In this document: positions 15,657 through 18,666 of the stretch, piece by piece
Position numbering within the stretch: the stretch's first letter is position 1
How the letters are laid out: every line of letters begins with the position of its first letter
Source of the DNA: Rhizobium sp. Q54
Lineage (GTDB): Bacteria; Pseudomonadota; Alphaproteobacteria; Rhizobiales; Xanthobacteraceae
NCBI GenBank assembly: GCA_945861265.1
Contig: CAMAUC010000033.1
Span: 1-33,460, forward strand
Direction: 5' to 3'
DNA length: 33,460 nucleotides
The notes under the pieces: generated by a model
Told to the model about the DNA's origin: nothing
The model's input: the letters and a program-made list of their open reading frames with translations, nothing else
Database searches by the model: none
Program-made: the position numbers and the translations under genes

Positions 15657-15820
15657 TGTCGTCCCCGCTCTCTCAATGTCGTCCCCGCGCAGGCGGGGAC
15701 TCAGCACTTAATCGCAGCTAATCAAGGAAGCGCTGGATGCCCGCCTTCGCGGGCATGACGGCGAGAGGATACTGCGCGTCCACACCCACCGCCATCATGG
15801 CCGGGCTTGTCCCGGCCATC
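15657..15820. repeat. Cluster of three short palindromes (dispersed-repeat type)
   Basis: Three perfect hairpins in a row: GTCCCCGC/GCGGGGAC (15681-15700), ATGCCCGC/GCGGGCAT (15737-15756) and ATGGCCGGG/CCCGGCCAT (15797-15819). A direct repeat TGTCGTCCCCGC occurs at 15657-15668 and 15677-15688. These look like the short intergenic palindromes scattered through many alphaproteobacterial genomes. They fill the 231-base gap between the cupin gene and the convergent serine protease gene and could also slow transcription from either side. Confidence 0.7.
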
Positions 15821-15861: not shown

Positions 15862-16701
15862 TTATTTTAATTCAGGGCCTTTGATGTTGCCCTTCCGAAT
15901 CAGATCGACCGCGTGATCGATACTATAGGCAATAATTATCCCTGTATTTCTTCGAATAACTTGATCCGTTGGCGTTAGCTTGCGATATGAGCCATCCGCG
16001 AAGCTAATTATTAGATTCAGCGCGCGATCTTCATCGGTAATCTCCTCAGGTTTTATCGGCACCATTTTCATAACTTGATCGATATCGGATCGATAGCCGG
16101 AAACAACGGCCGCAACTTTGAAGTCAAATCCTGGTTTTCCCTGCTCCAAGTACACAATCGGACTGCCAGAAAATCCCGAGTTATTACGCCCGTCAAAATA
16201 CATGCGGTTGAAATTATCTTTTCTCTCTTGCGCCGACCATACTGCCTTCCGAACGAACCCGATCGATTCGGTCTGAACAGTCGTAGTCAATGCCTGATCC
16301 GCGTAGGGGAATCCTACGAAATAAACATCTTGTCCGAGCACCATCCCATCTGAGGTTGCGGGGAGAGGAAAGGTTACTGTTTGTAAAGCGCGCGGAACGA
16401 GAACAGCTATATCAATAGGATCTTCACAACGAAGAATTGACACTTCCGTATCGATGCATTTACCGCCGCTTCCGCAAATTTGTACCTTCTCGTCAGCCTT
16501 CTTTAGCGTCGCGATTACGTGTTTGGCGGTTACAAGGTATTGACGTCCATCTACGTCGATTGTGAATGCAGTGGCCGAGGCTGGCCCGACAACTATTCGA
16601 ACGACGCGCTTTAATACGTTTGAGGTTACCCCAGTAACTTCGGCCATAGCTCGGCCTCCTAAGTAAAATAATATTAGCGTTGCGAAAAACAGCGCGCGCA
16701 T
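15862..16701 (-). CDS. Secreted trypsin-like serine protease
   Basis: A 279-residue protein with a signal peptide (residues 1-20, MRALFFATLILFYLGGRAMA) and a complete S1-type triad: His61 in LVTAKHVI, Asp97 in EDPIDIAVL, and Ser178 in GFSGSP. It should act in the periplasm or outside the cell. There is no PDZ domain, so it is not a standard DegP/HtrA protein. The gene is visibly richer in A+T than all neighbours, with many TTA, ATA and AAT codons, and is flanked by short-palindrome clusters on both sides, suggesting acquisition by transfer. No strong ribosome site was seen before 16701. Its target is unknown. Confidence 0.85.
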   Translation of the reverse strand: MRALFFATLILFYLGGRAMAEVTGVTSNVLKRVVRIVVGPASATAFTIDVDGRQYLVTAKHVIATLKKADEKVQICGSGGKCIDTEVSILRCEDPIDIAVLVPRALQTVTFPLPATSDGMVLGQDVYFVGFPYADQALTTTVQTESIGFVRKAVWSAQERKDNFNRMYFDGRNNSGFSGSPIVYLEQGKPGFDFKVAAVVSGYRSDIDQVMKMVPIKPEEITDEDRALNLIISFADGSYRKLTPTDQVIRRNTGIIIAYSIDHAVDLIRKGNIKGPELK

Positions 16702-16783
16702 TTAATTCACCCGAATCGCAATCAATCGCCAGTCTTAAGGCGATCTGACGAAGCGTAATCCGCCGCTGCTAATCCTTCAACGC

Positions 16784-16811
16784 GGCGGGTTACGCCTTCG
16801 GCTAACCCGCC
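16784..16811. repeat. Inverted repeat of dispersed-intergenic type
   Basis: GGCGGGTTA (16784-16792) pairs perfectly with TAACCCGCC (16803-16811), and GCC-TTC-GGC (16794-16802) pairs inside it, giving one long hairpin with a single unpaired C. It lies 83 bases upstream of the protease start. Short hairpins of this sequence type are, from memory, widespread between genes in rhizobia. Confidence 0.65.
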
Positions 16812-16848
16812 CTACGCAGGGACGAATGGAATTTTCCGGCCCACCCCC

Positions 16849-16877
16849 TTGACTGTATAAATCCCTAGGACTATATA
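16849..16877 (+). promoter_or_regulatory. Candidate sigma-70 promoter reading into the structured block
   Basis: TTGACT (16849-16854) and TATATA (16872-16877) are separated by 17 bases, giving a predicted start near 16884 on the plus strand. A symmetric, imperfect 26-base palindrome (16854-16879, centre CCTAGG, ends TGTATA/TATACA) overlaps the -10 element and could be an operator. No coding gene follows in this orientation before 18887. Confidence 0.5.
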
Positions 16878-16883
16878 CATCCT

Positions 16884-17390
16884 ATCCCGTCCCATCTACG
16901 AGGGGCGTTTGATCAGCGTCGTCAGATGCTGGGGCGGGGAGCGGTGGCCGGCGGGGCGTTGGAGATGCGACGCAAATGAACCCGACCGGCGGTCCAAGCC
17001 GCTCCGTCCCGGCGCACCTCCCCGTGCGTCGCTGTGGCCCCGTTGGTGACGTGGTGACAAGGCATCCGGCCAAAAGGAAGCCAAAACCCGTCAGGGCCTG
17101 AAGCGGTGGAAAGGCGCACCTTTCGTAAGAAAGGGCGCCTGAAACGGCAGTCCACCGGGGGCGGAGCGGAGCAAACCTATAAACATCGCGCGCGGAGCGC
17201 CGGGAGACCGGCAACTTCGTGGTGACTAACCTGCGTATTTTTAAAATATCTACGCAGGGCTATGGGGTTGTTGCGACCCCGGCGTTCCGCGCGCCCTCGT
17301 TTTATGAGGGAGCAAGAGGATGCACTTCCCAAGCGACGGCCTGCCCGGGGCCGCTCAAGAACACGGGCGATGACGCACGTCTGCTGTTTG
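16884..17390 (+). ncRNA. Candidate structured non-coding RNA or structured repeat element
   Basis: A 500-base block without a credible gene but with dense pairing. AGGCGC-A-CCTTTC (17112-17124) pairs with GAAAGG-GCGCCT (17129-17140) around a GTAA loop, and is enclosed by GGTGGA (17105-17110) and TCCACC (17151-17156). GCCGG-GAGA-CCGGC is at 17199-17212. CCTGCGTA (17230-17237) pairs with TACGCAGG (17251-17258). GGGGTTG pairs with CGACCCC at 17264-17280. GCGACGCA (16967-16974) pairs with TGCGTCGC (17025-17032). Two loops, GTAA and GAGA, are GNRA tetraloops only when read on the plus strand, the direction of the promoter at 16849. Ends are approximate. It may be one copy of a repeat family; I cannot test that here. 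Confidence 0.5.
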
Positions 17391-17418
17391 AAAATAGAAT
17401 CGGTATCGAAGCGGCGGC

Positions 17419-18666
17419 TTACGCCGCCTTGCCCTTGTTCACCTGGTTTTGCACGAAGCCCGCTGTCGAGGCATAGCCACGCACGATCGCCAGCCGCTGG
17501 TCGTGGCTCAGGACATCGTCGATATTGGCAAAGCCTTCCGGCGCGAGACGCTCGGCCACGTCGATGACGCCTTCCGGGCCGCCCTTGCGGTTCATGCGCA
17601 CGATCTGCGCCGTCATTGGCAAACGCTCCTGCTCGTACAGCCACAGCGCATGCATCGGATTGTCGGCGCTCGCCAGCCGGTCGGCGATGCATCTTGCATC
17701 GAGGATCGCCTGCGACGCGCCATTCGAGCCGACCGGATACATCGGATGCGCGGCATCTCCCAGCAAAGTCACGCGGCCATGCGACCAGCGCGGCAGAGGC
17801 TCGCGGTCGCACAGCGGATATTCCCAGAATTCGCCGGTCGCCTCGATCAGATGCGAGACATCGACATAAGGCAGTTTGAATTTCTGCAAGTAAGGCCGCA
17901 GATCGTCCCAGCGACCGGGCCGCGACCAGTCTTCCTTGCGCGGCGGCGTGCCGCCTTCCGACACTTTCGCCATCACCGCCCAGTTGGTGAGCTTGCGGTC
18001 GGGCGCGGTGCCGGCGGCGATCGGGTAGAGCACGAATTTCGCTTCCATGCCGCCGGCGATGATCATCGAGCGGCCGGTCAGGAACTGCGGCCAGTCCACC
18101 GCGCCGCGCCACAGCATGGTGCCGTTCCAGAGCGCGGGGCCTTCGTTCGGAAACAAAGTCTCGCGCACGAAAGAATGAATGCCGTCGGCGCCGATCAGCA
18201 CGTCGCCTTGCGCGGTCTTGATATGGCTGCCGGCGCGGTCGAAGAAAAACGCCGAGACGCCGCCTTCGCTTTGCGTGAACGAGCCGAGCCGGTGGCCGGT
18301 GTGGATTTTTCCTTCGCCGAGGCGGGCCCGCGCCGCCTGGTAGATGACGCCCTGCAACTTGCCGCGATGGATCGAGAATTGCGGCACGTCGAAGCCGGCG
18401 TCCGTGCCGCGCAGTTCGTGCCAGACCGTCTGGCCGAAGCGGTTGGCGTAGAAAAGCTCATGCGTGCGGATGGCGACCGCGTCGAGACGTTCGAGCAGGC
18501 CGAGGTCTTTGAGTTCGCGGATGGCGTGCGGCAGCGTGTTGATGCCGACGCCGAGTTCGCGAATGGTGTCGGCCTGCTCATAGACCTCGCAGTCGATGCC
18601 GCGGGCATGCAGCATCAGGGCCGTTGTCAGTCCGCCGACGCCGCCGCCGATGATGATCGCCTTCAT
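17419..18666 (-). CDS. FAD-dependent aromatic monooxygenase (salicylate/hydroxybenzoate hydroxylase-like)
   Basis: A 415-residue group A flavoprotein hydroxylase using NAD(P)H and O2. It has IIIGGGVGGLTTAL at the N-terminus (FAD ADP-binding fold), GADGIHSFVRE (the DG motif) and VTLLGDAAHPMYPVGSNGASQ (the GD motif). Length and domain order fit salicylate 1-hydroxylase or 3-hydroxybenzoate 6-hydroxylase relatives; the substrate is not readable. Start 18666 (ATG) has AGG 8-9 bases upstream; a TTG two codons earlier is possible. It is divergent from the CoA-dependent aromatic operon across a 220-base gap with a candidate operator, so it may process a related aromatic acid. A GGCGGC/GCCGCC hairpin spans its stop codon but lacks a T run. 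Confidence 0.87.
   Translation of the reverse strand: MKAIIIGGGVGGLTTALMLHARGIDCEVYEQADTIRELGVGINTLPHAIRELKDLGLLERLDAVAIRTHELFYANRFGQTVWHELRGTDAGFDVPQFSIHRGKLQGVIYQAARARLGEGKIHTGHRLGSFTQSEGGVSAFFFDRAGSHIKTAQGDVLIGADGIHSFVRETLFPNEGPALWNGTMLWRGAVDWPQFLTGRSMIIAGGMEAKFVLYPIAAGTAPDRKLTNWAVMAKVSEGGTPPRKEDWSRPGRWDDLRPYLQKFKLPYVDVSHLIEATGEFWEYPLCDREPLPRWSHGRVTLLGDAAHPMYPVGSNGASQAILDARCIADRLASADNPMHALWLYEQERLPMTAQIVRMNRKGGPEGVIDVAERLAPEGFANIDDVLSHDQRLAIVRGYASTAGFVQNQVNKGKAA

Follow-up and report, generated by a model that had tools for sequence, protein, structure and literature searches.

The biological role of the ornate large RNAs of bacteria is largely open, and other large folded RNAs, such as the HEARO/omega RNAs and group II introns, occur in many copies. 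Among the ornate kind, OLE, GOLLD and ROOL are described in PMC12286853: these bacterial RNAs are large and non-coding, and covariation supports their elaborate fold. For Bradyrhizobium and Rhodopseudomonas, passages of PMC5082802 describe Br-REP1 and Br-REP2, intergenic repeats that are partly transcribed, and, for Bradyrhizobium japonicum, BjsR1-BjsR10, which are intergenic, mostly possess predicted promoters of their own and in some cases have 2-4 imperfect copies. The BjrC small RNAs of B. japonicum are mentioned in passages of PMC4842269, and CGTC-tagged repeats of alphaproteobacteria are described in passages of PMC3733652.

The sequence analysed here (the window, a 33,460-nt stretch of Rhizobium sp. 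Q54) harbors one copy of a dispersed family, a unit of promoter plus body that extends on the plus strand from 16845 to approximately 17403. The family has a plus-strand fold that is kept by selection, a conserved promoter-like unit and many dispersed copies, and it is spread in one bacterial family. We consider it reasonably probable that 16845-17403 is a stand-alone gene of a large structured non-coding RNA family, apparently undescribed, whose product would act in trans as a scaffold bearing a variable arm. Like the ornate large bacterial RNAs, it has a long, covarying multi-junction structure, which in this case is known from sequence alone; unlike them, it lacks an Rfam match, belongs essentially to one alphaproteobacterial family and, in many of its hosts, has about 10 or more dispersed copies in a genome, the domains being common to the copies and exchanged among them. 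The ornate RNAs thus appear to be the nearest kind, and they are not relatives by any test run. None of the 4227 models of Rfam 15 matched the window, and permissive searches of 16700-17500 and of 16 cross-genus loci returned sub-threshold matches only. Likewise, searches of an open-access library turned up no description of this repeat family, which may nevertheless have been described before under a different name, and the consulted passages of PMC4842269, on transcription starts, and of PMC3927601, on the USDA6 genome, mention no such repeat.

The remaining described systems differ in more specific ways. Unlike HEARO/omega RNAs (IscB, TnpB), the element has no Rfam match in the window or at the 16 cross-genus loci, as far as Rfam models omega types; the scanned neighbours of the window copy, which encode a trypsin-like peptidase and an FAD-binding protein, include no nuclease or reverse-transcriptase gene. 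On the downstream side of other copies, 10 of 11 same-strand genes show no nuclease family, two of these 10 being without any Pfam match. Unlike a group II intron, it matches no Rfam intron model and contains no coding frame. Br-REP1 and Br-REP2 are short palindromes, whereas the element measures about 500 nt and has pairs over long ranges. A search for the Br-REP1 consensus and for a stretch of 18-20 bases of Br-REP2 found neither in the window at up to 3 mismatches, nor, at up to 4 and 5 mismatches, in L248, a plasmid-borne partial copy, or in 11 loci of Bradyrhizobium-like type. We therefore think that the larger repeat of PMC5082802 is probably another element. By their descriptions, rather than by sequence, BjsR1-BjsR10 and BjrC are set apart by having 2-4 paralogues per genome, as opposed to 10 or more here.

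The features of the window that enter the argument are the following.
16845-16882, plus strand: conserved promoter (TTGACT/TATATA); the homology of many copies begins at 16844-16848, 16864-16866 or 16884.
16884-17403, plus strand: structured RNA body of about 500 nt with an expected start near 16884 and an approximate 3' end, from the 38-copy alignment, consensus fold and G-U skew.
16886-16938, plus strand: 5' hairpin domain of the consensus fold, comprising P1 (16886-16893/16931-16938) and inner hairpins 16898-16908 and 16916-16929.
16941-17189, plus strand: central multibranch domain of the consensus fold, with closing helix 16941-16946/17184-17189 and passing pairs in helices 5, 9, 10, 11 and 13.
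16999-17005/17163-17169 and 17006-17010/17158-17162, plus strand: long-range helices of the central domain (consensus fold).
16947-16952/16985-16990 and 16956-16961/16968-16973, plus strand: further helices of the central domain (consensus fold).
17022-17098, plus strand: hypervariable, exchangeable central arm, recognised by its range of identity across copies.
17105-17156, plus strand: stem 17105-17110/17151-17156 around hairpin 17112-17140, from pairing counts over the aligned copies.
17164-17302, plus strand: 3' domain (model R1), with helix 17190-17201/17281-17292, hairpins 17235-17253 and 17264-17280 and then conserved GCGCCCTC, from the 43-sequence alignment A2.
17338-17382, plus strand: two 3' hairpins (17338-17352 and 17365-17382) common to sister sub-family B, from the consensus fold and comparison with that sub-family.
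17383-17403, plus strand: A/T-rich 3' tail GCTGTTTGAAAATAGAATCGG, seen by sequence comparison also in some copies of sub-family B and some of the main family.
15862-16701, minus strand: trypsin-like peptidase gene at the same intergenic site as the RNA, from the neighbour gene scan.

A preliminary description, made from the letters of the window alone, had proposed a structured RNA behind a TTGACT-17-TATATA promoter at 16849. This promoter is present, with the -35 TTGACT at 16849-16854, the -10 TATATA at 16872-16877 and a 17-nt spacer containing CCTAGG. The block outlined at the time, 16849-17390, is real, although the unit proves larger, reaching from 16845 to about 17403. The 3' limit of homology lies at approximately 17381-17388, and some copies run on into the tail at 17383-17403. 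Among 60 loci, 44 copies were usable for a promoter count, and 41 of these possess TTGAC no more than 60 nt upstream of the body, followed in 39 of the 41 by a TA-box 17 or 18 nt away. Given that the body begins at the expected transcription start and that TTGAC lies upstream of it in 41 of 44 copies, promoter plus RNA is the natural reading of the unit.

We next assessed the fold. For the stretch 16880-17420, the plus strand has a folding energy of -273.7 kcal/mol (z = -6.9), a value equalled by none of 100 shuffles, whereas the minus strand reaches z = -2.65 and is equalled by one of 100. For comparative evidence we aligned 38 full copies, consisting of the window copy and 37 of the 60 loci L037-L096 that remained after a coverage and length filter (alignment A1). 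The consensus fold comprises 92 pairs, in which 97.3% of 3477 cells can pair, compared to 38-49% when the partner is slid by 1-3 columns. Double changes occur in 26 pairs, as opposed to 11-16 in slid structures and a shuffled mean of 15.4, and in 192 cells, as opposed to 23-53 in slid and 52 in shuffled structures; none of the five observed fold values of A1 was equalled by any of 500 shuffles. Across the 38 copies, G-U cells outnumber A-C cells by 425 to 21, and the selected RNA is therefore the plus strand, in agreement with the difference between the two folding z-scores.

Covariation was scored with an R-scape-like test of our own, which takes its null from a tree and has a passing level of E<=0.05. 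When the structure was given, 15 of the 92 pairs of A1 passed (helices 5, 9, 10, 11, 13, 15 and 17) with a mean score of 6.09, against a null maximum of 0.53 and mean scores of 1.05-2.57, with 0-5 passing pairs, for slid structures. When all column pairs were tested, two passed in A1 (one 97% and one 70% paired) and one in the cross-genus alignment A2. Since slid structures outscore the null maximum and some of their pairs pass, the tree-based null is not strict enough for copies that are related and mosaic: with recombination among them, one tree cannot describe them all. Comparison with the slid controls is safer, and the fold exceeds these two- to several-fold. By both the slid controls and the given-structure test, then, the homologues covary, and the structured-RNA reading of the preliminary description is supported by this covariation together with the non-coding evidence below.

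Cross-genus evidence for the 3' domain, which directly adjoins the central domain, comes from A2, an alignment of 43 sequences made up of 30 of the 40 loci L123-L162, 12 Pseudolabrys copies and the window. It omits loci read as chance motif matches (L137, L145, L154, L158 and L159) or as rearranged or decayed (L142 and L157), one at a contig end (L126), one whose inner hairpin is missing (L123) and a near copy of L143 (L162). Seven of its 29 pairs pass the given-structure test. One pair of the 14-bp helix is CG in 32 sequences, GC in 6, UA in 2, GU in 2 and AU in 1, and the aligned copies of genus g41 carry GGC[ACT]TTCCCTGCGCCCTC on one strand and GCGCAGGGAA, then the matching base, on the other; since strand and partner are both altered and still match, helix 14 is kept by exchange. 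At the opposite end of the body, P1 is changed on both sides between genera, for example CCCGGCTC/GAGCCGGG versus CTCACCC/GGGTGAG. A P1 arm of at least 6 pairs is possible in 30 of the 31 loci of other genera that were used out of 40, to be read against a shuffled mean of 19.1 and maximum of 24, this control being high because the P1 arms are G/C-rich.

Viewed against this architecture, the stems listed in the preliminary description are real, but the list had missed the long-range helices 16941-16946/17184-17189, 16999-17010/17158-17169 and 17190-17201/17281-17292, which bear much of the fold. The 12-pair stem with one bulge at 17112-17140 exists with its GTAA loop at 17125-17128, and across copies its outer pairs are kept in 31-37 of 37, while its inner pairs drop to as few as 12 of 36. 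The enclosing stem 17105-17110/17151-17156 also holds, its six pairs forming in 34, 38, 33, 34, 37 and 30 of the 38 copies. Both claimed GNRA loops can be found, the second being a GAGA closed by GCCGG/CCGGC at 17199-17212, but GTAA occurs in 15 of 38 copies and is not a fixed feature. Within the 3' domain, two mutually exclusive pairings involve 17199-17212 and 17264-17292, one forming local hairpins and the other lengthening the long helix; the local hairpins covary better (7 of 29 pairs pass) than the extension (4 of 44), and the alternatives are possibly a switch.

To describe how widely the element is distributed, we combined BLAST, motif and covariance searches. The query 16840-17420 gave 23 matches in the source genome, some of them pieces of a single copy, and had matches in 19 of 24 genomes of the genus (the source included) and none of 16 others in a set of 40; presence is therefore patchy, with 5 of the 24 lacking a match. 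A pattern from the 5' part retrieved 16 named stretches, assigned to Pseudolabrys (7), uncultured Rhizobiales (6), Rhizobium sp. Q54 (2) and Bradyrhizobiaceae (1). Of 198 family genomes, 68 contain the motif GGCNTTCCNNGCGCCCTC and 3 its reversed control pattern, once each, and GAGGGGCG lies 331-474 nt upstream of GGCNTTCCNNGCGCCCTC in 30 of 40 loci, with 5 of the 40 read as chance matches. R1, a covariance model of the 3' domain with 146 positions that scores the window copy at 128 bits, matches 103 of the 198 family genomes and 25 of 47 genera; its counts refer to the 3' domain rather than to full-length copies, and, with no more than 15 candidates scored in each genome, high copy numbers are minimum values. 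When a sample of the order was searched, R1 matched 10 of 199 genomes, seven in the family of the source and three outside it; among these three, G342 (1e-21) and G369 (8e-16) give clear matches, and G025 a weak one. Matches in a sample of the class were limited to 2 of 289 genomes, namely the source and one weak match. Within the source genome, R1 has 14 matches at 11 distinct places, three being opposite-strand matches of the same place.

Where the upstream sequence was read, short BLAST matches to the 3' end mostly belong to a divergent sister sub-family B, found at L219-L222 (G004 and G012) and at L210, L211, L213, L214, L216 and L217 (G000). Four of these loci (L217 and L219-L221) were aligned and the rest read by eye. 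The aligned loci have an equivalent long helix, then a C-rich CCCTC-like sequence and the same 3' hairpins and tail, and three of the four possess a TTGACT-TATA promoter. R1 does not report the sub-family B places in the source genome, and family totals are therefore minima. An earlier suggestion that such blocks recur in Bradyrhizobium-type genomes is borne out in part: by name, a Bradyrhizobium plasmid carries a partial copy, and genus g41 has at least 15 scored R1 matches in 9 of the 10 genomes listed. The plasmid copy (L248, NZ_CP100605.1 325410-325579) is the 5' part of the element on a conjugative plasmid, without an R1 match to the 3' domain at that locus, and underlies an antisense gene annotated as a hypothetical protein.

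Comparison of the copies domain by domain indicates extensive mosaicism. Pairwise identities of the domains correlate poorly with one another (Spearman 0.02-0.42), and, counting gaps as differences, 14 pairs of copies combine an identity of 97% or more in one domain with less than 55% in another. On the same count, the pairs listed have anything from 18% to 100% identity in the central domain (alignment columns 124-290, approximately 16999-17094). For example, L042 and L049 have a common downstream flank (89%) and a central domain of 22% identity, the upstream side of L042 being a contig end, while the central domain of L042 is 100% identical to that of another locus, L056. Two pairs of loci that match on both flanks in two genomes, L037/L058 and L041/L094, are 47% and 55% identical in the central domain as opposed to 86% and 88% in the 5' domain, and the window copy is 97% identical to L048 in the central domain and 53% in the 3' domain. 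Because near-identical domains occur in otherwise different copies, it appears that entire domains are transferred from locus to locus, for which recombination or gene conversion would be the simplest means. The arm of the window copy (17022-17098) is found in the source genome in itself, in one other copy and in two weak short stretches. A phage-derived guide was considered as an identity for the arm and rejected, there being no phage match at E up to 5.

With respect to genomic context, the window copy is flanked by a cupin gene and a FAD-binding gene and shares this site with the trypsin-like gene. Twenty loci and the window were fetched for comparison, and 16 copies could be placed (L234, L237, L238, L240 and L243 were unplaced by motif). 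These are mainly intergenic, overlapping predicted genes by 183 nt at L232, 32 nt at L236 and 2 nt at L233, and no common neighbour gene was seen among the 16 copies or the 10 downstream genes scanned. By hand tally, 11 of the 16 copies are followed downstream by a gene on the same strand and five, the window copy among them, by an opposed one. Ten of the 11 same-strand genes were scanned, eight having Pfam matches of seven kinds and two having none. Six of the 10 scanned genes (L225-L241) encode membrane proteins or transporters, in a small, non-random sample without a control, and cation-efflux genes lie downstream of copies in two different genera. We also searched 40 genus genomes with the FAD-binding gene and obtained 27 near full-length matches, the source included. 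At this orthologous site the element is, by BLAST, present in 9 of 27 cases and absent in 13 with both flanking genes in view (intergenic distance -4 to 776 nt), 5 being undecided; R1 found the same 8 among the 26 other loci and no more. The 13 empty sites imply that the element is not needed at a given site. L181 and L187 have no match to the element and, by eye, a tail-like remnant.

These observations bear on several explanations other than a trans-acting RNA gene. Long open frames are common in GC-rich DNA, and the element includes a 110-aa frame on the minus strand (16882-17214), with some frame open over 80% of the length in 11 of 38 copies. Nonetheless, under a hexamer model trained on long frames of the same stretches, the element scores -0.20 to -0.42 in six frames, whereas 84 predicted genes above 200 aa score +0.51 on average and +0.10 at the lowest; the copies have a median of 4 stops in each of the six frames and vary in length from 497 to 601. 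We thus rejected a protein reading, and a coding gene or its remnant has a negligible probability. The statement that no credible protein lies here accordingly stands, and conservation of the block is not as protein. Selection of the inverted repeats as DNA, in a cruciform or a cluster of protein-binding palindromes, could draw on the REP-type palindromes of related genomes described in passages of PMC3733652, one of which lies in the same intergenic region as the window copy, but DNA pairing predicts no skew such as 425 G-U to 21 A-C cells. This skew already contradicts a DNA-level repeat, which is very improbable given also the nested junctions and the reach of the helices, as much as about 250 nt. 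A leader or 3'-UTR element controlling the adjacent gene in cis would fit the 11 of 16 copies with a same-strand downstream gene and the six membrane proteins or transporters among 10 such genes. This hypothesis is not supported by the strand tally, with an opposing gene in 5 of 16 copies including that of the window, or by the variety of the downstream genes, and the distance to same-strand genes varies up to about 460 nt; we regard cis control as unlikely.

The main rival is a selfish, non-autonomous mobile unit, in which the RNA or its DNA would serve its own spread by an enzyme acting in trans and copies would decay in place. Dispersed copies, presence and absence at one orthologous intergenic site, the tail-like remnants at L181 and L187 and the varied downstream genes are all in keeping with it. 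However, flank tests of 36 copies (38 of 61, minus L042 and L065, which begin at contig ends) gave no signal of target-site duplications, the longest word common to both flanks averaging 6.25 versus 6.29 when mispaired, although the exact 5' edge is not fixed and short duplications could be missed. Nor did the same 36 copies exhibit an excess of inverted ends (approximately 5.5 versus 5.45 shuffled, with approximate edges), and an insertion sequence or MITE was rejected for want of both signals. The promoter lies upstream of the expected start and is copied nonetheless, which argues against copying through RNA. The window copy has no phage match, and three plasmid searches yielded one partial match to a Bradyrhizobium plasmid, with the L151 query, and none with the window and L128 queries. 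The suggestion of a remnant of a mobile structured RNA is thus not demonstrated, there being no Rfam match, duplication, inverted ends or phage match for the window copy, and we hold the selfish unit to be a serious but rather improbable alternative to the RNA gene.

For a stand-alone RNA gene, we would expect a sigma-70-type polymerase to transcribe from approximately 16884, and the folded RNA, or an RNA-protein particle, to act in trans. A common scaffold would be built from the 5' domain, the closing helix and the 3' domain, all conserved, and the central arm (17022-17098), which differs among copies, may give each its own specificity. Copies would arise as DNA units with their promoter and be reshuffled by recombination. 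Going further, we tentatively propose, as a conjecture more doubtful than the RNA gene itself, a new class of modular RNA genes in which a promoter-bearing scaffold is present in about 10 or more copies per genome and the arm is swapped in a cassette-like manner between loci and genomes, recombination continually making variants; such exchange can be likened to the swapping of specificity domains in some protein systems. If transcribed, the family would constitute a structured RNA, roughly 500 nt in length, that can be detected by its 3' domain in 25 of 47 sampled genera of one family, apparently including Bradyrhizobium. It would supply a structure backed by covariation, a promoter and a wealth of natural variants for further work, as well as a case of RNA evolution through domain exchange between gene copies. 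The family may also explain some intergenic blocks that are called hypothetical proteins, of which L248 is one example.

Lastly, the sequences bordering the body vary among copies. In other genera, TTGAC is kept in the interval tested in 15 of 31 loci, and in genus g41 it is absent from that interval in 9 of 10 loci, where another promoter may be in use. By eye, boxes resembling TATTCCTA / CCTAGGACTAT lie before or between the -35 and -10 elements at L071, L072, L074-L076, L080, L085 and L219 and are possibly an operator. Just 3' of the last hairpin, a pyrimidine stretch and then palindromes resembling CCCTCCCC...GGGGAGGG were seen, also by eye, at L040, L041, L050, L053, L056, L058, L059, L070, L072, L073 and L076; these are perhaps terminators or REP insertions. 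In the window, the intergenic region that holds the RNA also contains CGTCCCCGCGCAGGCGGGGAC, a REP-type palindrome at 15680-15700 of which 0 are expected by chance.
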